Source: Aphrocallistes beatrix (taxonomy: Eukaryota > Porifera > Hexactinellida > Sceptrulophora > Aphrocallistidae). From it: DNA of 64,000 nt. Location of the stretch: assembly GCA_963281255.1 (NCBI GenBank), contig OY725500.1:3467184-3531183 (forward strand), given 5' to 3'. The notes under the pieces are model-generated. The model ran no database searches. It was not told the origin of the DNA and was given only the letters and a program-made list of their open reading frames with translations. This document shows positions 37,991 through 57,932 of this stretch, piece after piece; the stretch's first letter is position 1; every line of letters starts with the position of its first letter. Made by a program: the position numbers and the translations under genes.

Positions 37991-38225
37991 ATATACAGGC
38001 AGCCCTCGCCGTTCGCGAGTTTACCATTCGCGGAAAATTTTGTCTTGTTTTGCTTTTCGCGACTCGTTCCCTCGACTATTCGCGGTTTTCGTTACTCTCT
38101 TCGGTAGTTCCATGCACTGCCATAAGTCTATAACCTTATACGTATCTACAATTTAGGTTTAGTACTGTTGCGTGATATCTTGAGATCCTAGTATTAAGTA
38201 ACCATGGATGATTTAGTACCGTGAT

Positions 38226-39420
38226 GGGGGCGCTACATTAGTTAGAATTTTATCAACTGTCACTAGTTAGAATTGTTTTTTGAGTAGATTGCCACAAGTT
38301 AGAATCGTTTTTTAAGAAAGAACATTTAATTAAAATAAATAAAATAAAATGTGAAAACAAAGAAAATAATAAATAAAAGAAGTAGAACAATGAAAATGAT
38401 AAATAAAATTAGTTGAACAATGAAAATGATAAATAAAATTAGTAGAAAATGAAGATAATGAAGAAAAATGGAAAATGATGAAAAAATGGAAAAATCCTAA
38501 TTAAAAATTTGGAATATGCTCTGAATACTAGGGCGACATACCGGACAAGGCTGTCCCAATTCTTCCAGCCTTTCGCTACATTCTTTACAACACTGAGCAT
38601 GCCTACAAGGCATAAATACCCAAGTAGTTGTTCGTGGCAATAAACATACGGCATATTTATTTTCTGATGGGTCAATTTCATCATCCTCATCTTCTGAATT
38701 TTCCGAATCACTGGGGAGATAAATATCATGTGTTTTTATCTTCCCCATAGTTTGGCTGATTGTTTGGAGGAATTCCCATGGAGAACAGTCCCCATCGCGT
38801 AATTTTTGTGTCTTCATCCAAATACGCTGGGTAAAATGGAGCCAACAGCCATACATTTTTATATGAGGATAGACTTCTTTTAAGGCATTTCGAGCAGCTA
38901 GTTCCCAGTCCGCCATCGCTGCTAGAGGTTTGAAATGGGGTAGTTTTATACTAATATTTTCCAATACTGCTTGGTATAAATATTGACTCTTTGCGGTCAT
39001 CAGGCAGTGAATTGCGGGTAGAGAATGCTTCCCCACAGCTATAAATATAGTCTAAAGTTGAGAGAACTGAATTGGTACAGGGAAAAATGTTCCATCGAAC
39101 TGGATATTAGTAATTTCTGATAATATATTCATTTTATCTGAGTAAAAAACAACTCCAGTATGATTCCCGCAACTTACAGAGAATTTGTAATATTCTCCAA
39201 AAGTTGATGTCGGCAACATATCGCAGAATTCTGAAGCCGTCTGAGGGATTATCAGTTGAAGTTTTCTTCTGGCACGATACATTGATGATTCACATTCTGT
39301 AAATGAAATGTCACAAGCAGAAGGATGATTTCTTGTTACATCATTGAAAATTTGTCTGAGATTGCCTTGCGAAGATTTGGAAATCGTTTTGCATTTGCTT
39401 TTAGTTATGTGTCGCGTGCC
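38226..39420 (-). mobile_element. MULE-RING transposon relic A
   Basis: GGGGGCGCTACATTAG at the left end (3' of the gene) is followed by CACTAGTTAGAATT-type repeats. The transposase relic is on the minus strand. The 5' end was not found. Confidence 0.75.
38497..39420 (-). pseudogene. MULE transposase with C-terminal RING finger, copy A
   Basis: Minus strand. The amino part reads RQIFNDVTR and MYRARRKLQL. It is followed by the MULE DDE domain: IQFDGTFFPVP (first Asp), MADWELAARNA (second acidic position), YGCWLHFTQRIW (C/H motif). The carboxyl end has YAVCLLPRTTT...PCRHAQCCKEC...CPVCRPS, a C3HC4 RING of the IAP/MDM2 type. A stop follows FSQL at about 39052, and the section between KTQKLR and DGDCSPWEF is deleted relative to copy B. 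Family knowledge: MULE_tpase is a cut-and-paste transposase domain; a RING at its end would suggest ubiquitin ligase activity. Confidence 0.82.
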
Positions 39421-39935
39421 ACTAAATTGTGTCGCGAGCCATCAAATTTTATCATGTGCCACAATTTAGTGCCACAATGAAACTGATTGAACTACAAGGC
39501 CATTTGAGTAAGCCAAACAAAGTCTCAGAATGCTACGATATCTCAAAATATTACGATCTCAAGATATCACGGTACTAAATCATCCATGGTTACTTTATAC
39601 TAGGATCTCAAGATATCACGTAACAGTACTAAAGGCTAGACTTTACTAACTATGTAGGTATGGTACTTAGGTTTGCTAATAGGGGAGCTATATCTTTCAT
39701 TTATCACTTCATGTATTATTACCATTTCACTTGTGCTAGTGTTTGTATCAGTATTACAGCTCAACTATTGAATCAATAATGTATTTAGCAAACTGTATCT
39801 AGCGTCGTTTTATAATCTAGGAACATAACCCCACTATTCTCATTGAACTAACGTCTTGCCGTTCGCGATTTTACCATTCGCGGCAATTCTCAGGAACGTA
39901 ACCCCCGCGAACGGCGAGGGATACCTGTATATATA

Positions 39936-40375
39936 CAGTACCCGGACAAAAGTATTCGACCACCACAGAAACCTCCATACAAATGATATTAAAGTGGGTA
40001 TATTCATAAAGGAATATATACTCAAACCGTTAGGAATACGTACTTATAATTGATAGCCTCAACTCAATTACTAACTCCCAAGTTAATAAATATCAATATT
40101 TGATACTTGATACTACTTGTCCCAAGTCACAGCCATTATATCTGATGGCGATTAATGACACAAAGTGGCAGAGGTTGATAATTTTCTACATAAGAATAAG
40201 TATTTGAGTTGAGACTCTGAATTACGAGTAATTAGAATGTGTAGATTACGAATCTGAAATAAAAAATAGAGTATTTTCTTCTGTTTGAGGACATGTTCCT
40301 TTTTTGAATAGTTCCAATTTAATACTATTTGTATGGAAGTTTTCGTGGTGGTTGAATACTTTTGTCCGGGTAGTG
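39936..40375. mobile_element. Tc1-like MITE, CAGTACCCGG family
   Basis: CAGTACCCGGACAAAAGTAT with inverted CACTACCCGGACAAAAGTAT, next to TA on both sides. Abuts a second member. Confidence 0.85.
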
Positions 40376-40381
40376 TATATA

Positions 40382-40857
40382 CAGTACCCGGACAAAAGTA
40401 TTTGCACACTTCATTATCTTACGTGCATTTAATACTAAAGTGGATCTATTCATTAAGATTAAAACTCCGAAACGGTAAGTGATACAACTAATCGAATTTC
40501 AAATTCGAAATCTTCGCATTCGAATTAGTTATTGTAGGATATATCTAATCAATTACTAATTCCCAATTATTTCAAATTATCAATCACTGCCACCTTGTGC
40601 CACATATGTCCCTTTTTATCACTATACATGATGGTGATGTACTACCCCTTGTGCCACAGGTTGATAATCTTACTCATTGGGTTGTGCAATTTGTTAGAAA
40701 TCTTCAACTATTACTAATTCGAATGTGAAGATTTCGAATCTTAAATCAGACTCTTAAATCTTTTAGAGTTTGAATACTTTTCCCTTCATGAAAAGACCAA
40801 TTTAGTACTATTTGATGGGGAAGAATATAGTGTACAAATACTTTTGTCCGGGTACTG
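40382..40857. mobile_element. Tc1-like MITE, CAGTACCCGG family, second copy
   Basis: CAGTACCCGGACAAAAGTAT and an exact inverted end at 40841-40857. Different interior from its neighbour. Confidence 0.88.
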
Positions 40858-40880
40858 TATATATATGCTATATATATATA

Positions 40881-41504
40881 TTAGGGTGCTCCAAAAAATT
40901 CGAAAGTTGAAATATTTAGATGCACACTTTTCGAATAGTAGACATTGATCACCAAGTATGCACGGCAAAATTTTCAAGCAATTAGGAGATGATTTAGTGG
41001 TCGCGCAAAGTAGGCTCCTCCTGGCGCAGATTTATAATGGGATATGTCCGGTTTGAGGCTTAAAGTTGTAAAAGACGTACTTCTGATATTCAAATATACA
41101 AGAAGCTACCAGTTCGGAGATATTGATGAAAACAGTTGCGATCAGTCTTAGTCATTGAAATTATTAAGGGTCGCAAATGTTTTCACCAATATCTCCGAAC
41201 TGGTAGCTATAGCTTTTAGGTTATTAAAATGTATTATTAGCTGATATAAAACCACCCCCAAATATCACAAAAAATACAGTTACTAGTATATTTGAATATC
41301 AGAAGTACGTCTTTTACAACTTTAAGCCTCAAACCGGACATATCCCATTATAAATCTGCGCCAGGAGGAGCCTACTTTGCGCGACCACTAAATCATCTCC
41401 TAATTGCTTGAAAATTTTGCCGTGCATACTTGGTGATAAATGTCTACTATTCGAAGAGTGTGCATCTAAATATTTCAACTTTCGAATTTTTTGGAGCACC
41501 CTAA
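40881..41504. mobile_element. Long palindromic element, TTAGGGTGCTCCAAAA ends
   Basis: About 270-bp arms starting TTAGGGTGCTCCAAAAAATT, separated by about 50 bp, near-perfectly inverted and flanked by TA repeats. The ends look mariner-like. No coding capacity. Confidence 0.9.
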
Positions 41505-41512
41505 TATATATA

Positions 41513-41968
41513 TATGTCATGGGGGAACTTCAAATCTGGGGGAATTTGAAGTTCCCCCAGGGGAAATTCAAATTGGAGTTTCCACTGGGGGAAATTTCAA
41601 TTGGAGTTTCCCCAAGTGGAATTTTAAATTCCACTAGTGGGAACTCCAATTGGAATTTGCCCTGGGGGAATTTAAAATTCTAAAGACTAGATTTTGTCGT
41701 ACAAAAAATTTGAATTTGCCCTGGGGGAATTTAAAATTCTCAAATTGGAGTTTCCACTGGGGGAAATTTCAATTGGAGTTTCCCCTAGTGGAAACTCCAA
41801 TTTTTTGTACAACAAAATCTAGTCTTTAGAATTTTAAATTCCCCCAGGGAAAATTCAAATTGGAGTTCCCACTAGGGGAATTTAAAATTCCACTTGGGGA
41901 AACTCCAATTTAAATTCCCCCTGGGGGAACTTCAAATTCCCCCAGATTTGAAGTTCCCCCATGACATA
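41513..41968. mobile_element. Palindromic element, ATGGGGGAACTTCAAAT ends
   Basis: TATGTCATGGGGGAACTTCA and its exact inverse at the right. The interior is many GGGGGAA/TTCCCCC blocks in both orientations, including inverted AAATTGGAGTTTCC. Confidence 0.88.
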
Positions 41969-41993
41969 TACACAAACAAACAAACAATCAAAC

Positions 41994-42020
41994 ATTAATC
42001 GAGTTATAATAGTAAGGATT
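41994..42020 (-). repeat. Family A 5' end fragment
   Basis: ATTAATCGAGTTATAATAGT matches the inverted 5' start of family A; nothing else follows. Confidence 0.5.
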
Positions 42021-42953
42021 AGCATTGAATATTAAACAAAAGCAATCATCAAATTGATTTTACCTGAAACCAGCGATAGCGAAATGAACTGTTCGCTGGG
42101 ACTTGACACCATTTAACTTAGGATCAATTTTCCATGAAAAAATTGGTCCTGTAACAGCCCAGATTATACCCCCGTCCTCGAATATACCCGGGTATGAAGT
42201 GGGCTAGCCCAGAATATTCTCCCTGTCTTCATAATATCAATGTGGATCTTTTGGCATGGCCATAGCAGTGCGGCTGGTAAGCTCATGGCCTTCCCACTTT
42301 TTTCATAAACTGTCTTAGTTCTATGGACGATGATGTGGATGACTCATGATGAGTCTTACCACTTTTGATTAACACGGCGACAATGGCCTTACCACTTTTT
42401 CTGAGCTTCCGACGGCCCTGTTTGAGGTATCTATGTTAACATTTTGTTGTCGGAGTTACAGACTGTATTATAAATTGGAAAATTGCCTCAGAGAAGTAGA
42501 GTGATGGCATCTACTCCTAATATTATCATGACATTTATAGATAGACAGCAGGGACGGACCCAGGGGTGGCATGATATCCAGGGTCTCCACCCTCACTCAA
42601 AGAGAAAGTGCAATAGTCAAGTCTTAGCTAAGAATAATGTTAATTCCACAGTTCACCCTCTTTAATAAACCTTGATTTGCCCCTGGACAGAGCTCAACAA
42701 AAGAATTTCTATGTTTCTCCAATTATATTTCACTATAATAACAAGTACAAGTGTATAAATTATCAATTCCGTATACGTAGCAGTACACCCTTGGCTAACA
42801 AACAGCATCCGTCTGCTACTTTAAAGATTTCTATTTGGAGAAGTGAAATTGTTCGGCTAATCGAAGGCTTACTGTACTATGTTGAAACAAAAATGGACTA
42901 CAGGATATTAAGCATGACTGCCGGGAATTTTTTCTCAATTTTAGAAATTCCTA
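42021..42953. other. No gene seen
   Basis: AT-rich. A long open frame at 42677-43108 starts on TTG, has no motif and overlaps the Tc1 end, so I did not call it. Confidence 0.4.
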
Positions 42954-43860
42954 CACTGCTTGAACAAAAGTATTCGTACTCCTTGAATATTAAGAAATTT
43001 ACCCCCCACATACTAGTAGTAAATTCAAATTACTCAATTCAATGTATGGTACTTGTAATAATCACTCTTAACGTATGTGTAAATAGAGTAAATATTGTAT
43101 ATGCGTAGTAGCACTAGTAAGTGAAATGAAGTCCCAACTTCAGTATGTGTCTGCATGCCTCCTAAGTGTAAATAGGGTGACTATCGTTAGTATAAGAGAA
43201 ATGAATTCCTAACTTCAGTATTTTGTCTGCATGCCGTTTGATTTCTTCACGGCTTGCATTCTGTTCGGCATGCTTTCTACAAGTTGAGTTAGTGTCGATG
43301 ATGGGATGTTGACCCATTCTTCCAAAAGGATCTCTTTCAAGTCCTTTTTTTTGGCAATGATTCTCTTGCACTGATTTTTCTTTGTAAATTTCCCAGTGTC
43401 TCGATAGGATTTATGTCTGGACTTTGCGAGGGCCGTTCATTACAGACACGCCTTTCCGATCGAACCAACTTATGGTTTGATTTGCTCGATGAGCGGGTGC
43501 ATTGTCCTGTTGGAAGATCACGGAAGGACGATTTCTAAAACTTTAGGATAAAAACACGAGTATAATTTTGTTAAATTTCGCGAATATAACCTGACGAAAA
43601 ATTTAGTTTCCCATTGACTAAGTAACAAGGGCCCAGTTGATCACCACAAAAACAGCCCCGAATCATTACTGAGCCTCCATCACCTTGGACTGTTTTACGG
43701 GTGCATTCGGGAAGATATCGCTCGTTTGGTTGACGCCAAATTTTTTGCTTACCGTCTGAATAGAACAGTTTATATCTACTCTCGTCTGACCAAATAACGT
43801 CATGCCATTTGTCGTGGCTCCAGGATTTATGTAGAATTCAGAGAAACTTGAATATTGAGT
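42954..43860 (-). mobile_element. Truncated Tc1-like transposon
   Basis: A terminal CACTGCTTGAACAAAAGTAT lies next to TA at the left (3') end. Minus-strand transposase pieces lie at 43180-43850. The other end is missing. Confidence 0.8.
43180..43850 (-). pseudogene. Tc1-family transposase pseudogene, C-terminal half
   Basis: Minus-strand segments in changing frames: HDVIWSDESRYKLF, then DGGSVMIRGCF, then FQQDNAPAHRANQT (second catalytic region), RKVQT and, near 43310-43200, EEWVNIPSSTLTQLVESMPN. These are the standard Tc1 DDE-domain landmarks in order. The first half, including the HTH, is absent, and frameshifts separate the pieces. Confidence 0.85.
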
Positions 43861-43914
43861 GAAGATAAATGAGAACCAATATATGCCCCAAAATAGTATT
43901 TTCTATTCATGATA

Positions 43915-44047
43915 GGACCCATAGGCGCCGAACCCGGGGGGGCTGGGGGGGGGCTTGAGCCCCCCCTGGATTTGAAGATGACCCATAGACGCAATGCAAA
44001 ATTTACGGCCGAACCCCCCCTGGAACCCCGAAATTCTCCTTAGATGA
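43915..44047. repeat. Poly-G/C repeat fragment, CCATAGGCGCCGAACCC
   Basis: Inverted counterpart of 20580-20712, starting CATAGGCGCCGAACCC and containing GACCCATAGACGCAATGC. Confidence 0.6.
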
Positions 44048-44744
44048 ATTTTTTACATTGATATGATAAAATCTTTCTGTATAAATTGGGTTGGAATATT
44101 TTCTGTATAAAAATGATCTTGATTTGTATCCGAAATCGATGCCATATAATATTGTTTATCTTTCACAAGGTTTAGCAATTAGGACCAATTATAATATGGA
44201 TTCTTTAGTTGTTGCTTAAAATGTTATGGCCAGTGAATTACACTTCTTCTTACCCTCAAATAAAAATATTTTGGCTATTTTTTATTCTCTCTCTTGCTTT
44301 CTACTCTAATTTATTTGCATATTCGATTTTTGTGGACTGATCCAACATGCTATTGTGCAATCTTATATATATTATTAACATTTGAAGGGCATTTACCATA
44401 TGAATTTTCAATTTTTTTAATTGCTGAGATATATCGCTTAGTTGTTAGAAAATTCCACAATGAAACGTTGTAAACCAACTCGTGTATTTATTATATGCCG
44501 TTTCTGCCTTCTGGCTTCATCAGCACTGTAGTTATCAACAGTGGACGGCACTGCCGCCACAACACATTACAAACTCAAAACATATAAAGCTCAATGTCAA
44601 AAGATCAGACAAGTGTCTTCATACTGACCGCCACAGCCACATAAAACAATACTTACAAACGAACTAACGTGCTACTCTGATGAGGTAGATGACCGGAAAT
44701 ATTTGCTTCTGGGTTCAACGGTGTCGTATGGCCTCTTCATAACC
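44048..44744. other. No gene seen
   Basis: AT-rich non-coding DNA. Confidence 0.35.
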
Positions 44745-45032
44745 TTAAAAACGCTTCCCCCAGTCCCTACATTGGGATGGCCCAATCTCATATCGGGGTT
44801 GGGGGAAATGCCAGACGATGACTTCTTCCTCGGACTCGGGCTCGGGCTCAGAAGAGTTGGAAGAAGGCGGGCATGGGATGGTTTCAGGAGGAGGTGGAGG
44901 AGCAGCGATTGGTTCCTTTTCCCAAGGCCTTTTCTCCTTGCTCATCCGCCCTCTCCCTTTCTTCATCCAATTCATGGGACGGATGGGGGATGAATCCGAG
45001 TCCGAGGAAGGCTCCCGATAACGTCGTTTCAT
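44745..45032 (-). CDS. Hypothetical protein, Ser/Asp- and Pro-rich
   Basis: A 95-codon ATG frame on the minus strand (MKRRYREPSSDSDSSPIRP...). It is basic at the start, has a short acidic stretch (SEPEPESEEEVIVWHF), and has higher GC than the surrounding DNA. Charged, low-complexity and probably disordered. No domain recognised. It could be one exon of a gene or a relic. Confidence 0.4.
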   Translation of the reverse strand: MKRRYREPSSDSDSSPIRPMNWMKKGRGRMSKEKRPWEKEPIAAPPPPPETIPCPPSSNSSEPEPESEEEVIVWHFPQPRYEIGPSQCRDWGKRF

Positions 45033-45334
45033 AGCTAAGTTTTAGTATTAGTTTTAGTTTGGGTGTAACAAAGGTGTAACACAAAACTGGATATAATTTG
45101 ATAGAATTAGATTGTACAAGTTTGGAGGATAGATATCACCTCCTATTCTTATTATACGAATTAAATTTCCTATATCCGCATGCCCAAATAAACATTGAAC
45201 ATTGAAAGTTTTAGCTCTGTGTGAAATCCTTTGAACTGAATCGACTAACCACACATTTATTTTAGTGTTGTGATTCTGCAATTACGTAACACTTGTAAGA
45301 TAGTGATACTATACGAATTAGCAATACCTTGTTC

Positions 45335-45400
45335 AAATTTGATGATTTTTCGAGTGATATCGATTATAACAGTAAGACAGACGTGTTTAGAGATAGATAC
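45335..45400 (+). repeat. Family A fragment
   Basis: GATTTTTCGAGTGATATCGA and ACAGTAAGACAGACG are internal family A sequence. Confidence 0.6.
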
Positions 45401-45649
45401 ATTATCTCAAATACTACAAATACATGTAATGTATATGTTACAGAGTAGAGCAATAGTAGTTTAATTAACGTCGTAAGTACAATACTAGAAGTTACAAACA
45501 ATACAGATACTACACTCAGATTAAACTATATACCTACTTACCAATTGCCTACTATACGTACTAAGTTTATACTAGTTTAGTAATACTGAATACCCGCTAA
45601 TTTCCATGAATCTCTACTGCTCTACATCTAAGTTGACTAATTCATTAAA

Positions 45650-45930
45650 AAATGGCAAATAATTATGAATTATTCGAATAATTCATAATTCAAGCATGAA
45701 TTAATTAATCAATTAATTAATAAATAATTCATAATTTCTGATATATGAATTATTCCAATAATTCAGAATCCTGAATTATGAATTATTCGAAACAATTCAT
45801 TCATATAATTAATGATATTTCCATTAAAAAACTTTCAATTTTGAATAACTCTTCTCAGGCTTGATGAATTATGAATTATGAATTATGAATTATTCGAATT
45901 ATTCGAATTATCCATTAATTAAGGAATTAG
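45650..45930. repeat. AT-rich palindromic array (ATGAATTATTCGAATAATTC)
   Basis: Repeated ATGAATTATTCGAATAATTC-type units in both orientations. It can form many hairpins. Possible MITE interior. Confidence 0.7.
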
Positions 45931-47020
45931 CAACTTAGCTCTACATATATACTATCTATATGCATATAGTGGAGAATAAATAATCTCACAGATTGATTAC
46001 TGTAACCTATGCATTTACGATGTTATTGAAACTTTATTGTTAAGTAGAATTCCCATTGGGGACACAGTGTCCCCGATATCGCGGATGTCTCCCAGCCTGG
46101 CACTGAAGCCATATAAATGCTGGGCATTCTACATTTAAAATGAATCAAATACAATTTACATCAAAGGTATTTACTTTTGGAAGGTTAATTTTTATCTTAA
46201 TTATTATTATTATTATTTTGATGTTCAATTTCTCTGAGAAAAAAATCCATATATTAAAATCGACGAGGCGCATGCGCCTCAGCTACGAGGCGCACGCTTC
46301 ACCGACGAGGCGCATGCGTCTCAACGACGGGGCGCATGCGCCTGAGATTTTAATGCTATTCATGAATTAATAGGATTTTCTTTGTAAATACTACAACTTT
46401 AATTCTTATTCTAACATTTACTATTATAATTTATAGAATTGTATTATTAATGGCAGAAGGTGCTTCTACTGCTTCTCCCTTCTTAGAAGTGGATCCACTA
46501 AAAAACGTAAATTGATTATCCCGAAGCTAAATTATCAACACAGATGCAGCCTCTAAATTTTCCAATCAATACTGCTACGTCTTTAAACAAGAACATTAAT
46601 AAAGGTTAATAATTCATTTAATGAAGTCAACTCGGTCAAAGGTAATTAGTACTGATCGAACAATGACATATCATTCACAGATGATCTAACAGAGATATTA
46701 GAATTGGTCACCAACAGGGTTGGTAGGTTTAATCCACCCATGGGTTAAATTCAGGTATAAACCGGGTTGGGTAAAACTCCCTGTTGTGGGTTAAACCTCA
46801 TTATTATAAGCGAATCAACTTTATCAGGTCATATCCATTTCACTATAACCTAGAGAATCAATATTCTGTCAATATCTAATTAACAATGTTGTTACTACCA
46901 CAATAATTGGAATTCTTAAAAATTTTAGAATAAATAGGAATTCATAGAATTTATCATTATTTCAGATGTTTCTACGAAAACTAACTACATATAATGCCTG
47001 ACTATATAATGAAGGCTTTT

Positions 47021-47048
47021 CTATGTAGCAACCTAGGTTGCTACATAG
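47021..47048. other. Perfect 28-bp palindrome
   Basis: CTATGTAGCAACCTAGGTTG, completed by CTACATAG, is exactly self-complementary. Two degenerate partners follow within 80 bp (GAGCAACCTAGATTGC and GCTAGCAACCTAGGTTAC). Confidence 0.9.
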
Positions 47049-47164
47049 AACACCTCGAGCAACCTAGATTGCTAGAAATGTGCTAGCAACCTAGGTTACT
47101 CGGTGCTTAGTATGTAGCAGCCTATGAGAAATAGTATTACCGCTTTTATTCATAGATTAATATC

Positions 47165-47926
47165 TTATATATTAAAATGCTAGGATTTTTTTGTGTTTGT
47201 GTTTGTCCGAATTGATTGAAGAATTGGGAAGTCATAGAGATGTGAAAATTGGCATGTAGGTGTCAAACGATATGCCTACGGTTAAGTTCTAAGATCTAAG
47301 CGAAATTTTCACATCTCTGCAAAAAAATGGAAAACAATTTTTCACACCTTTTCAATACAAAATAAATGACTACACTATCACAATAGAAACCATTGTACGA
47401 CACTATAATAGATCGTTATTGTTATTAATACTTCAAAGCCACAACTTATGTTTGATATCTTGAATACATTATAGTGTATGGCAATTAAAAAAATTATGTG
47501 CATATTTTCACACCTTTATATACATATTTTCACACCATTGATGATTTTGAAAAATATCCTAGAGACTAGCTTCCAACGAGTGATATGGTTCTAGGGGTGT
47601 AGATTTCGAATATTACATTTTCAGATCAATATGATAAATTATTTGTTTACTTTTGTTTACATTAGATACATAAAGTGAACAAATCTCAAAAGTATGCTAG
47701 AAACTTGCTTTCAACGGTTGACACGGGGTTTTCAAGGGTGTAGATTTCGAATACTATATTTTCGGATCCATATGAGAAACTATTCGTTAACTTTTGTTTA
47801 CAATATTTATATATTTAAAAAATTCCCAAATTAGGTTAGATTGAGTAACTCCACGCGCGGAAAGGGCGACTCTGCGGACACGCAGTGTCCGCAACCGCGC
47901 AGCCAAGCAAGCGAAGCGCGCTTGTT
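47165..47926 (+). repeat. Dispersed family B, near-complete copy
   Basis: Starts TATTAAAATGCTAGGATTTT and ends CAAGCGAAGCGCGCTTGT. Near the end is the hairpin GCGGACAC-gca-GTGTCCGC. There is an internal duplicated block (GTGTAGATTTCGAATA twice, near 47600 and 47740). Confidence 0.85.
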
Positions 47927-48256
47927 ATTATTAATAGGCAATGCCATTATTTTATTTCATTAAATTTTCTTCTTACTTTAAGGTTAATAATACTTAGCAG
48001 TATTGATTGGAAAATTTAGAGGCTGCATCTGTGTTGATAATTTAGCTTCGGGATAATCAATTTACGTTTTTTAGTGGATCCACTTCTAAGAAGGGAGAAG
48101 CAGTAGAAGCACCTTCTGCCATTAATAATACAATTCTATAAATTATAATAGTAAATGTTAGAATAAGAATTAAAGTTGTAGTATTTACAAAGAAAATCCT
48201 ATTAATTCATGAATAGCATTAAAATCTCAGGCGCATGTGCCTCGTCGATTTTAATA

Positions 48257-48737
48257 GCTCAAAAATCATGAATCCTAATGATTATATAGCCCTTGAAAGC
48301 ATTTGGGATTTTTCTATTTATAGTAGTAACCCCAAACTTATATGGCTTCCCCATTGAAAATGGCTTAAACCGGAAATGACGCAACACATTCCTGTGGCAA
48401 GCGGGGGATAGGGATAGTTGTTTATAATTGAAAGTTTGGAACATGCTCGGGGCACATTATCGCGTTCCTAATAAAATGGCTTCATAACTGCATCCTTTCA
48501 AACCATTTTTTGAATTACCTCACGCCACTCATCCTTGTCGATGGTCGAGACCAATTTGCGCGGTAAAGTCAATAAGTTATAAAACTTGATATGATGGGTT
48601 TATTATAAAGTAGTGAATCCGGAAAATTTAGCATAACCTTCGTATTATCAGACCGGATTCCGGATATGAATCGGATATCCGGTGCATTTCTACTGTTTAG
48701 TTGTGTTACATCGTTTCATTGTCAGGGATTAGATTGC
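48257..48737 (+). promoter_or_regulatory. Upstream region of the glycosyltransferase
   Basis: Non-coding; no TATA could be assigned. Includes ACCGGATTCCGGATATGAAT repeats near 48655 that are imperfectly inverted. Confidence 0.35.
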
Positions 48738-48770
48738 ATGAGCAGCTTCTTGAAAAAGAACAGAAGATAG
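48738..48770 (+). promoter_or_regulatory. Short upstream ORF abutting the glycosyltransferase ATG
   Basis: ATG at 48738 opens a 10-codon frame (MSSFLKKNRR). Its TAG ends at 48770, directly before the main ATG at 48771. Such a uORF could reduce or set re-initiation at the main start. Whether the transcript includes it is unknown. Confidence 0.5.
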
Positions 48771-50306
48771 ATGCGGATAAAGTTGGTCTATATGGTGGGA
48801 GCATTTACCCTGCTCTGTTTCCTGGTAATACAGCTGGTGCACAGGGTTATATACTTAGAGGATTTTAAATTACGTCTGATGATGGAGATAGACGAAGTCA
48901 ACACGAGTTTTATTGACGCCAAACTTGAGTTAGACAGGATTATAACCGATGACCTCATGTCTAAGATAAACAATATTTCGAAAGACAAATATACTGATGG
49001 GCAGACATCTCTTTCGCCAACTCCAGTCCAATCTAACTTTAATTTCCATTTGAAAGGCCCCGGTAGATTTCACAGATACATGCTTGTAAGCGATGTTACA
49101 CCAGACAAACTCTACATCGTTTCTGAAAAGAAGAGAAACGATTACAAGTTCATTATTGGTATCCCAACAATAGCAAGACCACAGAAACAAAAATATCTAG
49201 CTGACACCATCAAATCCCTCTTCAAGGACTCTGCCTCCATTCAGCAACTCAACATCCTGATCATCATCTACGTAGCTGATATAGAATCGAATCGTTGTGG
49301 AGATGTCTTGGAAATGATCAGAACTAGTTTCGATCAGTTCATTCGTGCAGGAATGATAGAGATTCTCTGTCCACACGCCACTCTCTATCCTTCCCTCGAA
49401 TATCTCCCGCAAACTCTTGGAGATCCGGTGGATCGGGTTAGATGGCGATCTAAACAGAATTTAGACTTTGCCTTCTTGATGGCTTATGCTGCTACCAAAG
49501 GCGATTATTATCTCCAATTAGAAGATGACGTCATAGCTTCAGATGGATATGCATACCTCATCGATAAGCATGTGGAGAGTGTGAAAGGTGATAATTGGTT
49601 CTTGATACATTTCTCAAGCCTAGGATTCATAGGTAAATTAATGCGTTGTAATGATTTGATCGCATTCTCGCAGTACCTGCTCCTCTACTATAATAATCAA
49701 CCATGCGACTGGCTTATGAATGATTATGGGAAGGGACTCGTGTGTTATTCATCCTTGCCTACAGAACAATGTAACTCTAAACTGGAAAAAATATACCCCC
49801 TCTATTCTCCATCCCTCTTCCAACACATGGGAACTGTATCCAGTTTGAATGGAAACATAAACAACCTCAAAGATCCTCTCTTTAAGGAAAAGCCAGACGT
49901 TCCTTTTAAACCTCTTGGCTACTCCAATCCTCCCGCTAAAGTTGTTTCCAGCTTCTCGATACATTATCAGTACACTGCGAACAAGATATATGAAGGATCA
50001 GATATATTCTGGTCCAATGCAATCCATGAAGGTGATGATATCATTATCGAGTTTAACAGGCCACAAAAATTGAAGGGCCTTCTTGTACGATCAGGTAACG
50101 AAAAGCACCCTGGGGACAAGATGGAACATGGGATGATCCAGTACAAGATCGAAGGAACAAACCAGTTTGAACACTGGTGTGATTTTAAAGACGGAGAAGC
50201 TAATTGTTCTCGTTCAGCCTCTGTTTTAGTGACTGCTCTAAGGATCTCAGCCAGCCAGCCTCAAGCTCCCTGGTTGCTCATTTCACATTTAGAGTGTTTA
50301 CTCTAG
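48771..50306 (+). CDS. MGAT4-family N-acetylglucosaminyltransferase (GnT-IV type)
   Basis: 511 residues, ATG start, single exon. Residues about 8-28 form a signal-anchor, so it is a type II Golgi membrane protein. The catalytic domain has IGIPTIARP at its start, an ILCPHATLYPSLEYLP region and LQLEDDV (Glu251-Asp252-Asp253), the metal-binding DxD-like motif of GnT-IV. The carboxyl region (NPPAKVVSSFSIHYQYTANK..YEGSDIFWSNAIHEGDDIIIEF) is the GnT-IV C-terminal lectin-like domain. Family members add beta-1,4-GlcNAc to the alpha-1,3-mannose arm of N-glycans. The subtype (A/B versus C) cannot be set from the sequence alone. No breaks were seen. Confidence 0.9.
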   Translation: MRIKLVYMVGAFTLLCFLVIQLVHRVIYLEDFKLRLMMEIDEVNTSFIDAKLELDRIITDDLMSKINNISKDKYTDGQTSLSPTPVQSNFNFHLKGPGRFHRYMLVSDVTPDKLYIVSEKKRNDYKFIIGIPTIARPQKQKYLADTIKSLFKDSASIQQLNILIIIYVADIESNRCGDVLEMIRTSFDQFIRAGMIEILCPHATLYPSLEYLPQTLGDPVDRVRWRSKQNLDFAFLMAYAATKGDYYLQLEDDVIASDGYAYLIDKHVESVKGDNWFLIHFSSLGFIGKLMRCNDLIAFSQYLLLYYNNQPCDWLMNDYGKGLVCYSSLPTEQCNSKLEKIYPLYSPSLFQHMGTVSSLNGNINNLKDPLFKEKPDVPFKPLGYSNPPAKVVSSFSIHYQYTANKIYEGSDIFWSNAIHEGDDIIIEFNRPQKLKGLLVRSGNEKHPGDKMEHGMIQYKIEGTNQFEHWCDFKDGEANCSRSASVLVTALRISASQPQAPWLLISHLECLL

Positions 50307-50444
50307 AATATTCCTCAACAAATTGGGTTTTCTGGCTTAATACCGAAATAAGATGAACATTTTTGAGGATGTATTGTATCAGAAAATTAGATAATCTAAA
50401 CATTTAGTATCTCTAATTAGAATCCTAATTAGATAGTCAATGAG
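50307..50444. other. 3' flank of glycosyltransferase
   Basis: Short AT-rich flank; no clear polyadenylation signal called. Confidence 0.3.
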
Positions 50445-50690
50445 AACTTTTTCGTGTTCGCCACTAACTCTGCAAACCGAGGGTATGTTTGCTGAATGTT
50501 CATCTCAAATCTCCTTGCATTCTAATCTGTTACGCAGCTTGGCTTTTATGGCAATCAGAGGCTAAAGCCCGGCCTCACATAAGTAAGTTGACGAGAATGC
50601 GTTAAGAATCAGAATAAACATTCTGTTGATCTTCGAGAATACCGGTAACTTCTTCACCCAGAATTTTGGACTAAGTGAACTATAACCCTA
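50445..50690. repeat. Dispersed repeat shared with 34640-34860
   Basis: Shares AACTCTGCAAACCGAGGGTA and GCTAAAGCCCGGCCTCACAT. Same orientation. Confidence 0.75.
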
Positions 50691-51120
50691 GCATTTAGAC
50701 CTGCAAATCTAGTTCTTATGGCTGGCAAATCGTTAAATCATTGGCACCTTATCATCTTTATATGAGTGATTTTGTGAAATATTGTGTAAGAGACTTGTTT
50801 GGTAGGCCAGTTTTCACCCATTTTGAGGAATGTATTCGACTAACACACCTACTGTCCTAGAACGAATAATCATCTAGAGGGATGGCATAATAAATTAAAA
50901 AGAACAGCTCGAATAGCGCATGTAAATATCTACGAAATTGTAGAAATATTCAAACAAGAGCAGCATACATATAGCCTTACTTGTAATTGACAACTGGTGC
51001 TACGCTCCAGTATAAACGGAATTTCATTATTAACAATATTCTAAACGAGTTCGTTTCATATTATTATTGATTTATTTAATTTTTTATCCATTTTAATATT
51101 ATTATTTTTAGCATTGAGTA

Positions 51121-51390
51121 TTAAACAAGTGACAGTTCTAGTCCCAATTCACGCACTGATCCGATGTCGATTACCAATGGTCCTGCACCACTATCGAGAA
51201 GAGCATTCGCACGAGTTCCGTTCAGTTTTACGGAGATGAGTGCCGATAGTTCTAGTGTACCAAATCCGTTTTCTTGTGCCGCTAGGGCGGTATGGGTGTC
51301 TTTTCCTTTGTGAGTCATGTCACAATCCTTTAGAATGTGACCTTTCTGCCCTCAAGATGGGCATCGCTTCTCAGGGCATGATCTCCATAT
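51121..51390 (-). pseudogene. Gag zinc-knuckle and aspartic protease fragment
   Basis: On the minus strand a knuckle-like CPS-stop-GQKGHILKDC precedes ANALLDSGAGPLVIDIGSVR, a retropepsin site. The TGA stands where the second cysteine (TGT/TGC) of CX2CX4HX4C is expected, so this is a single-base loss. The rest of the element was not found. Confidence 0.65.
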
Positions 51391-51463
51391 GTGTTTATAT
51401 GTGTTAAATATAACAACCTCTCTTGCCAGTTGTTCTGGCTCCCTGGCTTGCTTCCTCCACCCC

Positions 51464-51725
51464 GATAAGTAAAATTATCAACCTGTGGCACAAGATGTAA
51501 TTCTTCACATGATGGTGATGAATTACATCTTGTGCCACAGGTTTATAATTTTACTTATTGGGTTGAACAATTTATTAGAAATCTTCAACTATTACTCCTA
51601 ATTCGAATGTGGATTTCGAATCTTCAATCTCTCTTATAGCTGAGAGTACATTTCCCTTCAAGCAAAGATCAATTTAATACTATATGTATGGGAAAGAATG
51701 TACAAACACTTTTGTCCAGTTAGCG
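51464..51725. mobile_element. Truncated CAGTACCCGG-like MITE
   Basis: A CCTGTGGCACAAGATGTAAT hairpin and a right end GTACAAACACTTTTGTCCAG resemble the Tc1-like MITEs. The left end is missing. Confidence 0.55.
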
Positions 51726-51925
51726 TATGATATGTTTTATCCTACTACATATATGTTTTATCCTACTACAGCCTACTACATATAAGGCCTCACAGTAACT
51801 TGCGGATTTGGGACTAGGGATGCGGTAGAAGATGATTGAACTAACATGAGCTGCCTTAAATCATTAACCATGCACAATAGAGCTTAGGAATGTATTACCA
51901 CCATATATAAATATGGTGTCACAGT

Positions 51926-52705
51926 ACCCATATCCGTTGTTAAAATTTAGATTAGTCATCATATGATTTCGCAATAGGTTATATTTGTGACAAATTTAGT
52001 GATTTTCAGAGATGGTTTACGAGCACTTCTAAGTGTTTTTATTACAATTGTTTTCCATAGAAGTGAACCGTGAATGGGTTGATGCGAAAAATTTGGAACT
52101 CTTTAATGGAATGTTGCTACATTCCAGTGTGGCTATGAAAACGCATTTTGGTCAGTTAGCATCATTTCTTGGAAACCTCGCAAGAGCTAGACATTCAAAT
52201 TTAATTCTATTTCATATCGAATATACTATTTCTTATTAAGCAATAATTATTATTGCTTAATAAGAAATAGTATATAGGCTATAAAATAGAATTATATTTT
52301 AATGTCTAGCTCTTGCGGTTTCCAAGATATGACCTCAACTGACCAAAATGCATTTCAATAGCAACACTGGAATGTAACATCAACCCATTTACGGTTCACT
52401 TCCCCCCCCGCTTATTAATTTTTGAAAAAATTTCCACCCCCCCCCCCCCCCCGCCTATTCCAACCCCCCCGTTTATTAAATTTTATACTAATTGAAACTT
52501 GAATTTTTACCAAACCATAGTTTCTGACTTGATGTTCTGAATCAGTTAGACCTACCCCGCTTATTAATTATTGAGAATTTTCCACCCCCCCGTCTATTCT
52601 AACCCCCCCCCCCCCCCCCCCCCGTTTATTCGGACCCCTAGAGTAATTTGTCACAAATATAACCTATTGCGCAATCATATGATGACTAATCTAAATTTTA
52701 ACAAC
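51926..52705. repeat. Palindrome 1 with poly-C tracts in the right arm
   Basis: Left arm 51926-52246 and right arm 52247-52705, starting from the centre AATAATTATTATTGCTTAAT. The right arm carries inserted runs of C (52385-52460 and 52600-52625), which could be expansion or assembly noise. Confidence 0.8.
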
Positions 52706-52712
52706 GGATATG

Positions 52713-53723
52713 AGTACTGTTGCGTGGTATTCTGAGGCACCGTGGTATTTTGAGGCACTAGTCAAATTAACCATGGATATTCAACTTGCGTGGTATTCTG
52801 AGGTACCGTGGTATTCTGAAGCAACACCAACCTGTGATCATGATGCGATCATTTACATAGTTCTAATTTAGACAATGACTTTCCATTTGAGTAGTGATAC
52901 TTGTATGTTTTCCCTGCTCTAAATAGTGTATTGTGCTTCATGACCTGAATGCTTATTAAATAATATGTTTATTCGTCTCATTATTCAGGGCATACAATAC
53001 AAATAGAAAAAAATCTGTGAGTACTGTTGCGTGGTATTTTGAGATATATCGTAGTATTCTGAGATTTTGTTTCGCTTACTCAAATGGCCTTGTGGTTCAA
53101 TCGGTTTCATCGTAAACTGATAACCACTGCCACCAAATTGTGGAACATGACACAATTTGATGGCACGCGACACAATTTACTATGGTAGAACCCCATATGG
53201 ACCATAGATAAAGTATATGTTTCATTCATGGTCCATATGGGGTTCTACCATAGTAAATTGTGTCGCGTGCCATCAAATTGTGTCATGTTCCACAATTTGG
53301 TGGCAGTGGTTATCAGGTTACGATGAAACCGCCGATTGAACCACAAGGCCATTTGAGTAAGCGAAACAAAATCTCAGAATACTACGATATATCTCAAAAT
53401 ACCACGCAACAGTACTCACAGATTTTTTTCTATTTGTATTGTATGCCCTGAATAATGAGACGAATAAACATATTATTTAATAAGCATTCAGGTCATGAAG
53501 CACAATACACTATTTAGAGCAGGGAAAACATACAAGTATCACTACTCAAATGGAAAGTCATTGTCTAAATTAGAACTATGTAAATGATCGCATCATGATC
53601 ACAGGTTGGTGTTGCCTCAGAATACCACGGTACCTCAGAATACCACGCAAGTTGAATATCCATGGTTAATTTGACTAGTGCCTCAAAATACCACGGTGCC
53701 TCAGAATACCACGCAACAGTACT
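52713..53723. mobile_element. 1-kb foldback element, near-perfect palindrome
   Basis: AGTACTGTTGCGTGGTATTC at 52713 is inverted at 53723. The arms are about 495 bp each and almost identical, around a centre at about 53205-53228. Inner AGTACTGTTGCGTGG repeats occur at 53020 and inverted at 53420. Sequence inside (CTCAAATGGCCTTGTGGTTC, CACAATTTGATGGCACGCG) is shared with the element around relic A. Confidence 0.9.
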
Positions 53724-53725
53724 TT

Positions 53726-53988
53726 TAAAATCTCTGGTCAATATTAGCTGATAACCTGGATAAGTTGGGGCAAGTAAACTCCTTGGAAAGCCTAATTCGG
53801 AACTTGAAATTGGCCTGGAGTGGTATTGATTGTGATATCTTAGAAAATTTAGTGAGTGGTATGCCTAATCGAATTGAGAAAGTCCTAGAATTGAAAGGTG
53901 ATATTGGCAAATGAGATTTAGAGTGAATGTTTTTTATGTAATATATAATTTAAAATGTTAGAGGGGCCAAGACTTTTGAAACACCCTG
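53726..53988 (+). pseudogene. Mariner/Tc1-type transposase C-terminal fragment
   Basis: Reads NLWSILADNLDKLGQ and ILENLVSGMPNRIEKVLELKG, the carboxyl end of a Tc1/mariner transposase, followed by a TGA and a terminal GGCCAAGACTTTTGAAACAC plus CCTG next to TA. The remaining 5' part is replaced by the palindromes. Confidence 0.8.
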
Positions 53989-54129
53989 TATATACTGGTC
54001 ATACATTCCTAAGCTCTATTGTGCGTGGTTAATGATTTGAAGCAGTTTATATACTATTAGTTCAACCAACTTCTAACACATCCCAAAATCCGCAAGTTAT
54101 TGTGAGACCTTAGTAGGCTATGATCTTAT

Positions 54130-55560
54130 GGGGGCACTGCTTTAGTTAGAATTTTTAGATTGTCATTAGTTAGAATTTTCTGAATTGTAACAAGTTAGAA
54201 TCAATTTGTAGTAGATTGTAACAAGTTAGAATCGGCATAACATATAATGTTTATACTATTTAATTGAAGGTGGTTGCAATAATGATAATGCTGTTTGCTT
54301 ATAATAAATGATAAAAAAAAGAGATGAAAATACTAGTAAGACAGAATAAATGGTTACACTGTGAAGATTCGAAACCTATCCTCTATGACCGAACGGCAGA
54401 TTGGACAAGGTTGTCCTAACTCTTCAATCCGTTCGCTACAACTAATACAGCATACAGCATGTCTACAAGGAATGAAAACGCATGTGGTTGTACGGGTTAA
54501 GAGACAGACAGCGCATTTACTTTCAGTAACCTCATTTATCTGATGCTCTTCTTCAGATTGTTCAGAATGGCTCTCGATTAAGACTTCAGTGGTCTTAAAG
54601 TTACCAATAGTATTTCCCATCGCTTGTAGAAACTCCCATGGCGAGTACAGAGTCCATCAGTTAATTTTCGTTTGAAAATACTTCTATTTTCATCAGTTTT
54701 TATGTGTTTCTTTTTTCTTGCCCTACTTATCTCTCTTCCTTGTCGTAAACGTCCAATTTCATTATCGGTATCCTGTATTATATCATTTAGCGTTTTCATA
54801 AAACATATCCGGGGATGGCCCATCCTTATTATAGAGTTTGGAGTGATAACTCTGCTGCGTTGTTAGTGGTTATGTCAAAAATGGAAAGTTCCTCTGGTGT
54901 AATTTGAGTCAGCCAACGCTTCTGGAAGTATTTCTTTAGTTTTTCGAGCTTTATCATCTCAGGACTTTCAAGTGTAGGCAATTGAAGAAAGCTATGTGTG
55001 GGAGTAATCAATGGAGCTGGCAAAATGGGATTGCCATCAACTGTCTGATAAATTTGTCAACAACGTGAGAATTTCTAAAACTCTGACTGAGCCCAAGTTC
55101 TTGTGTCTTCGCCCAAATTCGCTGCGTAAAATGAAACCAGCAGCCGTAAACTTTCGTTTGCGGATATACATTGCGAAATGCAATTCTGGCTGCTGGTTCC
55201 CAGTCTGACATTGATGAAGAAGGCTGAAAAAGAGGAATGTTGACACTGATATTTTCCAGAATAGCTTGATAGAGATCTTGACTTTTTACAGTCATCAAAC
55301 AGTGAATACCTGGCAAGGTATGTCTGCCCACAGCGACGAATATCGTCCATAACTGGTAGAATTGAACAGGGACAGTGAAAAATGTTCCATCGAACTGGAC
55401 ATTCGTTACTTCAGATAAGAAATCCTTCATTTTATCTGAGAAGAAAACTACAGCAGTTTGATTGTTGCCACATGTCACAGAAAACTTGTAGTAGTCCCCA
55501 AAAGCAGTTGTAGGCAACATACGTAGTTCAAGTCGTTTTATTATTGTAATAAGTTACTAG
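54130..55560 (-). mobile_element. MULE-RING transposon relic B
   Basis: The left end GGGGGCACTGCTTTAG is followed by TTAGTTAGAAT and ACAAGTTAGAATC repeats (54145-54240). The transposase relic is on the minus strand. The 5' end was not found. Confidence 0.72.
54354..55560 (-). pseudogene. MULE transposase with C-terminal RING finger, copy B
   Basis: Minus strand. FGDYYKFSVTCGNNQTAVVF, VQFDGTFFTVPVQFYQLWT (first Asp), SMSDWEPAARIAF and VYGCWFHFTQRIW define the MULE domain (55520-55008). Then, in changed frames, LKKYFQKRWLTQITPEELSI and DTDNEIGRLRQGREISRARK appear. The carboxyl end (54620-54354) is SKCAVCLLTRTTTCVFIPCR, then HAVCCISC and CPICRS, an intact C3HC4 RING. At least three frame breaks. 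This is the fullest copy; the RING lies in the same order as in copies A and C. Confidence 0.85.
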
Positions 55561-55871
55561 AGTTTAATTCCAATACTAACACCGAACAATATAGTAATGA
55601 TGAACAGACTGGGTAAACTAGTGAATTAATAAAGTTCGTTCAATTGTGTTCAAGGGATTTTCTAGTACCGCGCGAAACGCTCCTTTAGGGGTATGATTTT
55701 ATGCCTGAAAGTGTTTAGGAACGTGAAAATCCAGGATAATACCTAATTTACCCTATATTATAATGCTATTTATCGTTTTAGACGTATAAAAATTTAGAGG
55801 TTTGAGATTAGGAAGCATATCTCTGGAGGGGATCGCGGAATTAAACGTTTAGTATTGTATGAAAGTCTTTT
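55561..55871. other. No gene seen between relics B and C
   Basis: AT-rich DNA. Probably remains of the termini of the two elements; no array recognised. Confidence 0.35.
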
Positions 55872-57310
55872 CTACGTGAATATTTGCATAATATTAAGTA
55901 TTGGAGTACGACAAATTGAACAAGGTTTCTTTTCATTGACAAAATGTTGTCCACAGTTCATACACAAGGTTGCGTGTCCGCAGGGAATCAGGGCAAACGT
56001 ACTTTCCTTAGCTTCGCAACAAATTATACAATTGTCTGGAGACCTCTCAACTTCTACTAGACATTTCTTCAACCTCAATGGTGTTTCGTGAATTATCAGA
56101 AGCATATTTACATGTTCGGTCAATTGTAAGTGAGATAGCAGTCAAATATTATTGCTCAGTTGTCATGGTTCCATTCTGTAAATTTTGTTTACATTCTTTT
56201 CTCCGTGTTGATTTTTCAATAACATTTTTGGAGGCCTTGTTATTTCTAGGCCATTCTCTAGTCTCTGGTAATCTGCCTCAAAATCAGTCATTATCTTTGA
56301 TAAATCAGTTAAAAATTTCCATACATTCGGGTGATGTACTCTAATGGACGATTTTAAACATTTGTGGAAGGACTCAGAGCCATCATTCGTTGCGATCTCA
56401 GCAGTAAAGACAGTCAAACTTTTTTCTCCCAATACCCAAGTTTTCTTGAAGTATTTCTTTAATTTAAGTTCGTTATCAGTATCAGACAATTCGAATGCTT
56501 GAGCCTCTAATGAAGGAAATGTCACTAATATCTCGCTTTGTGGTAACCAAGGCAGTGCCATTAGCTTTCTAAGCCAATTGGTATATTCCATTTCTCTTTT
56601 ATATAATTTTCCAAGGCCCAATTTTTGCGTTTTATTCCAAATTGCTTGCGTGATATGGAACCAGCATCCTATAATCTTCATTTCTGGAAAAAATGTATAA
56701 ATGCGTTTCCCGGTGCTTTTACAAAATCACTCACGGCCAATTTTGGACTAAATCTAGGAATAAGTTGAATTCATTTCGAGATTACGGTAGTATATAGCTC
56801 TTCAGTTTTATTTTGCATCAAAATGTATAAAGCCGGGATACAATGCCCATGGAATGAAACGAATACCGTGAAGAGTTGGTAAAAGCTAGACGGTACGGTG
56901 AAGAAAGTTCCATCAAATTGTATATTGTCAACACTGTTCATTTTCATCAGCATGTAGTCTGATGCGAAAATTACTGCCACAGCTCCATCATGATTCCCGA
57001 TGCAAATGTGCAAATGGAGATGTAACAATAAGTTGAGTGAAATCTCCCGCATCTTTTGGGAGAGGTGGAAGTAAACGCCTTCTTCTTTTGCACATACTGC
57101 TCTCAATATGCCGAAATGTTACCATATTATTAAGGGGCTACCCTCGACAAGTTTCATTGAAAACTTCACGTAGTCTTTCAGAAGAAGTTTCGGCTGCCCG
57201 TTTCAACTTATTTCGCAATGAAGATTTACCTAGTTTATATGCCTCCTCTCCATGATCATGTGCAGACGTAGGAATAAGTGTGTTCAGAGCATAATCTATT
57301 TTAGCATACC
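55872..57310 (-). pseudogene. MULE transposase with C-terminal RING finger, copy C
   Basis: Minus strand, a diverged relative of A and B. KRAAETSSERLREVFNETCR, then IQFDGTFFTVPSSFYQLFTV, then IIGCWFHITQAIWNKTQKLG and TNDGSESFHKCLKSSIRVHH, followed by a RING: CIICCEAKESTFALIPCGHA then LCMNCG and CSICRT (56123-55872). The pieces lie in at least three frames, and the region carrying the second acidic residue is missing near 56700-56770. The presence of the RING in a distinct lineage argues that the fusion is old. Confidence 0.82.
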
Positions 57311-57317
57311 CTGGACA

Positions 57318-57523
57318 CAGGGTTTCATCCAGCTTTCCGAAGTCATACGCCTAAATGGCCGCCACCGTTTTTCTACGCACCTAGACTCTGCATTTTTATA
57401 TATGTTTTATGCCACGCGCCTAAGTAGGCGTAATGCCGCGCGCCTAGATCATACGCCTAATTATGATCCATGGGATCAAATACGCGCCTCTAGGCGCGCC
57501 CAGTACGCCTGGATGAAAGCCTG
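57318..57523. mobile_element. hAT MITE with 8-bp target duplication
   Basis: The ends CAGGGTTTCATCCAG and (reversed) CAGGCTTTCATCCAG are flanked by CCTGGACA (57310-57317 and 57524-57531). The interior repeats TACGCCTA/TAGGCGCG. Confidence 0.9.
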
Positions 57524-57810
57524 CCTGGACATCCAGAAATTCTATTAAGCGTACATCTCAAATAAGTGAATTGTTGAGAAGACCTCACTTTAATGTAGAA
57601 ATAACCTGCTGACTGATAATTAATAGAATTTAGCTTCTTTCCTTCTCCCAAAGTTACTTCCATTTTTATTTATGAATTAATGTTTTCGAGTTTTAATATT
57701 TAAGAAATATTATATCGAAAGGAAACCATATTATTATTGCTCAAGACAAAACGTAATGAATCCGCTATGTTAAGATAAAAACAATAAGCTGTAGAACCAA
57801 AAACAAAAGC

Positions 57811-57932
57811 GTTGGTCAAATTCCTATCACGAAAAAAACGTTGGTCAATTTCCTAATTTGTTTGTTGGTCAGATTCCTACCTCGTTTGTTGGTCAAATTC
57901 CTACTTCGGCGTTGGTCAAATTCCGGCGTCCC
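57811..57932 (-). repeat. Subterminal array GTTGGTCAAATTCC of relic C
   Basis: Five copies of GTTGGTCAAATTCCT spaced by about 20-25 bp, ending in GGCGTCCC. The position and design suggest transposase binding sites. Confidence 0.85.

Follow-up and report, generated by a model that had tools for sequence, protein, structure and literature searches.

In a 64,000-nucleotide stretch of the genome of the hexactinellid sponge Aphrocallistes beatrix (assembly GCA_963281255.1, contig OY725500.1, positions 3,467,184 to 3,531,183, which is G000:C14:3467184-3531183 in our coordinates; hereafter the window), we found three defunct members of a lineage of Mutator-like (MULE) DNA transposons in which a MULE transposase is fused to a C-terminal RING. 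The copies (A, at 38.2-39.4 kb; B, at 54.1-55.6 kb; and C, at 55.9-57.9 kb) are all encoded on the minus strand. A six-frame Pfam search of the host genome (100.5 Mb, 28 contigs) placed a RING (PF13920) downstream of a MULE domain (PF10551) in each copy, with both domains on the minus strand and all six matches above the Pfam cut-off, which bears out the three relics that had originally been predicted from the letters of the window alone. We consider this anatomy to be nearly certain. Our reading as a whole, to which we assign a probability of roughly 0.55, is that the copies represent an old Phantom/Muta-like FLYWCH-MULE lineage with an IAP-like C-terminal RING E3 ubiquitin ligase that the transposase would use on itself.

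The same arrangement is found elsewhere in the genome in uninterrupted open reading frames (ORFs) that contain both the MULE domain and the C-terminal RING, at L009:3397-5031 (+), of 545 codons, and at L010:3347-4951 (+), of 535 codons. The fusion is therefore genuine and the RING is no chance neighbour. A frame with both domains was what the original prediction had suggested looking for, and the two proteins so found, 545 and 535 aa long, were used as genome queries (P0001 for L009 and P0002 for L010). Their RINGs match PF13920 with E-values of 4e-14 (L009) and 6e-10 (L010), while the PF10551 matches have E-values of 1.4e-6 and 1.4e-9 (29.1 and 38.8 bits, respectively, as compared with a cut-off of 27.6). 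The catalytic Asp-Asp-Glu (DDE) triad was assigned by motif to D188/D249/E372 in L009 and to D185/D247/E367 in L010; the second Asp and the Glu are invariant in a four-row alignment, in which the first Asp is covered by only two rows. NCBIfam returned no families for P0001 and P0002. No BIR domain was revealed when P0001, P0002 and fragments from L017 and L027 were scanned with Pfam, and the likeness to the IAP family is confined to the RING. Separately, the MULE-C-terminal/RING frame at L053:952-1560 (-) reads some 10 residues beyond the usual stop.

The pairing of the two domains was counted among 121 MULE and 150 RING matches listed (the best 150 of 168 and 150 of 186 candidates were scored). 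A RING on the same strand and no more than 2 kb downstream was found at 26 of these 121 MULE matches, with one upstream and none on the opposite strand, as compared with an expectation of 0.18. The distance between the MULE and RING starts was 664-918 nt in 24 of the 26 cases; one was 1038 nt, and that of copy A was 309 nt because of its internal deletion. When loci matching the MULE core of P0001 or P0002 were considered, a RING was present at at least 41 of 72. This count took 81 of 86 P0002 matches, 29 of 89 P0001 matches and 112 of 150 RING matches, leaving out small pieces, matches at loci already listed and mostly weaker RING matches, and 41 should thus be taken as a lower bound.

At eight loci, of 18 intervals examined, target-site duplications (TSDs) of 8-10 bp were found at the ends of terminal inverted repeats (TIRs) enclosing MULE and RING. 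The duplications measure 8 bp at L010, L014, L015, L016 and L022, 9 bp at L009 and L028, and 10 bp at L012. They lie at, or no more than one base from, inverted ends that begin with G runs, and they enclose the transposase-RING gene or what is left of it. It should be noted that the two ends of L009 are only loosely alike, that those of L014, L016 and L022 were first placed by eye and subsequently checked, and that exact repeats not abutting an element end (L017 and copy A being examples) were dropped. As these bounded units hold both parts, the RING moves with the element, and it does not derive from a neighbouring host gene, the origin against which the original prediction had been hedged. 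The TIRs are made up of short tandem repeats. At L026:572-3563, some 3 kb on the 5' side consist of tandemly repeated units of 31-32 nt, and the same units recur at the other end of the copy; this tract is a hugely grown terminal repeat. At L024:5309-6368, a palindromic insertion of about 1 kb lies in the 3' part of the copy, and pieces of it are also seen in the window at 51.8-52.7 kb.

For ligands and tail, 33 element RING loci were examined. The full C3HC4 ligand set is present in 23 of them, window copies B and C included, and in all 23 the last Cys is directly followed by a linchpin Arg. The protein ends 11-13 residues later in 21 of the 23 complete RINGs, and 20 of the 23 carry an aromatic residue near the C-end (the exceptions being L015, L021 and L040). 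In IAP and MDM2, a linchpin Arg together with a tail ending in an aromatic residue characterises a dimeric RING able to activate E2~ubiquitin; RINGs of this type dimerise via the C-tail, while the linchpin Arg serves E2~ubiquitin activation and not dimerisation. Among the PDB structures that the element RINGs match in sequence are those of the XIAP, cIAP1/2, BIRC7, MDM2, CGRRF1 and MGRN1 RINGs, with BIRC2/3/4/7 all represented. The best matches of copy B and P0002 are IAPs, and the match of copy B to XIAP covers residues 34-98 of 100, nearly to the last residue. An AlphaFold model of the copy B RING, built on a three-row alignment, gave a mean predicted local distance difference test score of 42 and a predicted template modelling score of 0.29, and neither supports nor refutes a RING fold. 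Judging by these sequence features, the RING is probably a working E3.

Sequence comparison also indicates that the RING is under purifying selection. The ratio of nonsynonymous to synonymous substitution (dN/dS) of the RING was below 1, as was its upper 95% bound, in 11 of 11 pairs (the pairs share loci and so are not independent). For L010/L028, RING dN/dS was 0.24 (95% interval 0.09-0.56), with 0.20 for the MULE core; for L022/copy C, it was 0.28 (0.10-0.69), with 0.30 for the core. The linker evolved faster at nonsynonymous sites than did the RING in 10 of the 11 pairs. When considering these values, one should take into account that many synonymous distances were saturated (capped at 3) and that the linkers of L022 and copy C align poorly. 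Recent pairs gave ratios near 1 over the whole gene (0.86 for L009/L011 and 1.27 for L018/L019), as expected of drift after insertion; by themselves, these lend no support to selection.

The same saturation implies that the fusion is of considerable age in comparison with the subfamilies. The MULE-core tree divides its rows into 30 with a RING and four without, with support of 100/99, although the RING-bearing rows had largely been chosen for having a RING and the near-identical or repeated L003, L005 and L006 had been dropped before the trees were built. Given this uneven sampling, the case for a single clade is weaker than the support value would imply. With this reservation, the ancient fusion that had been predicted is in agreement with both the tree and the mostly saturated synonymous sites between subfamilies. 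The RING tree, based on 55 columns and including host RINGs, resolved less, with only four of 34 inner branches well supported. It recovers the groups {L009, L011, L036}, {L017, L022, C}, {L018, L019} and {L024, B}, its well-supported branches force at most one change between host and element labels, and no host RING was identified in it as the source. A single RING capture would be the simplest reading of these sequences, although the RING tree does not confirm it. L007, an intact 453-aa ORF with FLYWCH (39 bits) and MULE (47 bits) domains and without a RING, falls among the RING-less rows of the MULE tree and plausibly illustrates what the element looked like before the fusion. The best MULE match in the genome, a 706-aa ORF at L001:301-2421 (+), also matches the ZSWIM1/3 RNaseH-like family and has no RING; it is another MULE-derived gene or element.

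We propose that an IAP-like RING was added to the C-terminus of a transposase, most simply by a single ancient fusion. The N-terminal FLYWCH-like finger of this transposase would bind the tandem repeats in the inverted ends of the element, and its DDE core would cut and re-insert the element, giving the 8-10 bp duplications. At the other end of the chain, the RING may pair with a second RING through the short aromatic-ended tail, and the paired RING would recruit E2~ubiquitin to the transposase complex once this has assembled. The action would most likely be self-directed, with the transposase being ubiquitylated so as to limit its dose and/or dismantle the complex after the cut, and with RAG1 as the parallel; to our knowledge, the exact role of the RING in RAG1 is not settled. 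Self-turnover as the main role of the RING is a possibility that we rate a little short of even.

Several observations weigh against this reading. The N-terminal FLYWCH matches are under the Pfam cut-off of 23.6, at 21.5 bits in L009 and 10.2 bits in L010 (E-values of 2.6e-4 and 0.89; 7.4e-4 at L055, discussed below), and the full uninterrupted frame is known at only two loci. No RING was detected at 31 of the 72 MULE-core loci. Of these, 17 end before residue 330, and nine show low identity (23-31%) and are, judged by identity rather than by a tree, probably another MULE group; five extend to residue 387 or beyond, still with no RING detected. The full ligand set is wanting at 10 of the 33 element RING loci. 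An Arg after the last Cys is also frequent in the listed host RINGs, and so marks RING E3s in general. P0001 and L055 find their best PDB match in MGRN1 or CGRRF1 rather than in an IAP. For L010/L028, the linker is constrained as much as the RING. In the RING tree, host RINGs fall among element RINGs with four label changes, a single change occurring in 0% of 200 bootstraps. Nor does any observation single out the transposase, as opposed to a host protein, as the target of the RING. Finally, no relatives outside the host genome were found in the viral contigs (103 pattern matches) and prokaryote contigs (47) to which that search was confined.

The main competing explanation is that the RING works in trans, ubiquitylating histones, silencing factors or repair proteins of the host at the insertion or donor site, where it would help the element to evade control or to complete repair. 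We consider this possible, albeit on the unlikely side. A RING with a linchpin Arg should be a general E3 module, transposons do carry ubiquitin-acting domains, such as the Helitron deubiquitinases described in excerpts of PMC9741609, and one locus carries FLYWCH and RING without the transposase core. At this locus (L055:1853-2479 (+), G000:C10:3548252-3548878), an intact 209-aa ORF leads from FLYWCH straight into the linker and RING and sits between inverted repeats. However, the FLYWCH-RING copies are equally explained by ordinary internal deletion. Six more loci have FLYWCH and RING pieces without the core (L056-L061); in five of the six, the pieces are in different frames, and in L059 they share one frame with a stop. 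All such loci may be plain internal-deletion copies. The L055 derivative is possibly a repressor, which we offer as a lead only. A broader view, which we rate as speculative and doubtful, is that RING-MULEs are a long-lived class with ubiquitin ligation built into transposition, an independent second RAG1-like transposase-E3 plan, in which FLYWCH-RING derivatives would act as degraders targeted to DNA ends, repressing the parent transposase in trans.

It is also conceivable, if plainly unlikely, that the RING is purely structural, its paired form aiding dimerisation or synapsis of the ends, with ubiquitin transfer playing no role. The cross-brace domains of piggyBac-related transposases are C-terminal and are not known to be ligases. 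The aromatic-ended tail of 20 of the 23 complete RINGs fits this explanation, as does the tail-mediated dimerisation of IAP and MDM2 RINGs mentioned above. So do the cross-brace zinc domains of piggyBac-related transposases, as presented in excerpts of PMC8086355. Against it stands the linchpin Arg in 23 of 23, given that its part in E2~ubiquitin activation is separate from dimerisation.

Far less probable is that the RING is a passenger, namely a host RING fragment captured in Pack-MULE style and carried unused. MULEs are prone to take up fragments of host genes (excerpts of PMC6446971) and the RING tree is compatible with more than one capture, yet the position, frame and C-end of the RING are alike across subfamilies, and in none of the 11 pairs does its dN/dS reach 1, the values being close to those of the MULE core, whereas a passenger would drift at about 1; on the dN/dS values, we rejected this explanation. 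Chance adjacency, or the RING of a neighbouring host gene, as the broken window copies could on their own be read, is refuted by the one-frame ORFs, the pairing at 26 of 121 matches and the TSD-bounded units, and its likelihood is negligible.

The window copies themselves are in different states of decay. Copy A (38226..39441, -) is 5'-truncated and internally deleted, with a 314-codon frame containing one TAG. Its 3' terminus, read from the sequence as GGGGGCGC, lies at 38226 (-). The MULE domain (PF10551, 36.6 bits; 38827..39105, -) and the RING (PF13920, 42.0 bits; 38518..38649, -), both seen in the genome search and in the window translation, share one frame. The copy matches P0002 residues 82-284 and then 431-534 in that frame; the FLYWCH end is missing, as are some 146 residues that should separate the MULE core from the linker. 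A 5' TIR was looked for by eye in 39440-39660 and none was seen; the truncated window copies yielded no TIR/TSD pair. A 68-nt inverted repeat (38158-38225 and 39566-39633, 97% complementary) flanks copy A just beyond its 3' end. It was rejected as the TIR of copy A, since the 3' terminus is at 38226 and the repeat lies outside.

Copy B (54130..55553, -) contains frameshifts and its 5' end was not found. Its 3' terminus, GGGGGCACTG as read from the sequence, lies at 54130 (-), and a 3' terminal-repeat array with a 25-nt unit was placed at 54142..54201 by the repeat analysis. The MULE domain (PF10551) spans 55122..55400 (-), by genome search and window translation, and the RING, with its eight ligands complete and with the XIAP and cIAP RINGs as best PDB matches, spans 54378..54524 (-). 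Copy B has a near twin elsewhere in the genome, L024, with identities of 94.8% over 1290 nt and 98.5% over 130 nt. Copy C (55872..57932, -) is a diverged relative of L022 with frameshifts and stops; its 3' TIR was not found. Its 5' terminus at 57932 (-), read from the sequence, is ...GCGTCCC, the complement of GGGACGCCGG, and a terminal-repeat array with a 24-nt unit, of a repeat family shared with the L022 TIRs, lies at 57840..57924. A piece of the N-terminal FLYWCH region (57523..57663, -) matches P0002 residues 2-50. The MULE domain (PF10551; 56693..56923, -) comes from the genome search and was not recovered from the single window frame given, while the RING (55896..56036, -), seen in both the genome search and the window translation, has all eight ligands.

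On several details, the original prediction can be confirmed or corrected. Its outer limits, 38226 and 57932, are true element ends (the 3' end of A and the 5' end of C). The motifs QFDGTFF and GCWxHxTQxIW can be made out in every copy, while DWE, also claimed, is present in A and B only (C has SDF). A C3HC4 RING was assigned to every copy, which is correct for B and C; copy A keeps seven of the eight zinc ligands, having lost the first to a Tyr for Cys exchange (NKYAVC). Copies A and B were said to be close, which is true only in relative terms, with an identity of 72% over 424 nt, B being far closer to L024. Copy C was rightly described as diverged but alike in domain order, its closest match, L022, reaching 78% over 1482 nt.

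Two other features of the window were observed. An OTU-like cysteine protease ORF (E-value 4e-4, just under the cut-off) adjoins an endonuclease domain of the retrotransposon kind at 35282-35806 and 36048-36623 (-), together perhaps a long interspersed nuclear element carrying an OTU domain. At 10188-14093 (-) lies an uninterrupted 1301-codon frame with a URGCP-like GTPase domain.

As to known systems, the closest likeness is to Muta1 of Aedes aegypti, a transposase of 504 aa with FLYWCH at 24-92 and DDE residues 214/283/419 (PMC5225508), and to Phantom. By description, these share with the present element a DDE triad, TIRs with subterminal tandem repeats, TSDs of 8-9 bp and a single transposase of about 500 aa, and their FLYWCH-type N-terminus has a candidate counterpart here in the N-terminal matches below the Pfam cut-off; excerpts of PMC5225508 and PMC6446971 name no RING, whereas here the C-terminal 50 or so residues are a RING with its tail. 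The published yeast excision assay for Muta1, a structural look-alike, means that use by the transposase of its own ubiquitin ligase can be tested directly. Tm1 of root-knot nematodes likewise combines FLYWCH and MULE in 496 aa, with a 9 bp TSD and foldback-like composite TIRs with repeated motifs, but a RING is not mentioned in the main text of PMC3169594. Within the same genome, L007 has FLYWCH and MULE but ends after the transposase core. RING fingers have been reported along with MULE transposases in Ghost and in Phytophthora 37_Pi (PMC6446971), such that the original statement that no RING-terminal class is established requires qualification. In Ghost, from the black cherry aphid, the RING occupies a 420-bp ORF of its own, next to a transposase ORF that is truncated, and no TIR or TSD was found, while 37_Pi is a table entry, "C3HC4 ring finger"; the excerpts name neither a C-terminal fusion nor a RING class. 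Our finding offers a reading of the loose RING ORF of Ghost, which could be the cut-off end of a similar MULE-RING protein. In the literature searched, which lay outside most subscription papers and Repbase, we found no description of a C-terminal MULE-RING fusion class or of a FLYWCH-MULE-RING protein. What is added is this probable domain plan in a single chain, with a RING kept by selection across several subfamilies of one genome. In function, the nearest comparison is RAG1/Chapaev, in which a DDE transposase is accompanied by a RING; the RAG1 RING shows ubiquitin ligase activity (PMC4411706), and autoubiquitylation figures in the title of a reference listed there. RAG1, however, belongs to the Transib superfamily, and the RING lies after the Chapa domain and on the N-terminal side in RAG1 (PMC4411706), a plan of Transib-type core, Chapa and N-terminal RING to which the Pfam results here, a MULE core and a C-terminal RING, do not correspond. 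By analogy, the element would at most work like RAG1, as a parallel to its RING E3 in a different transposase superfamily.

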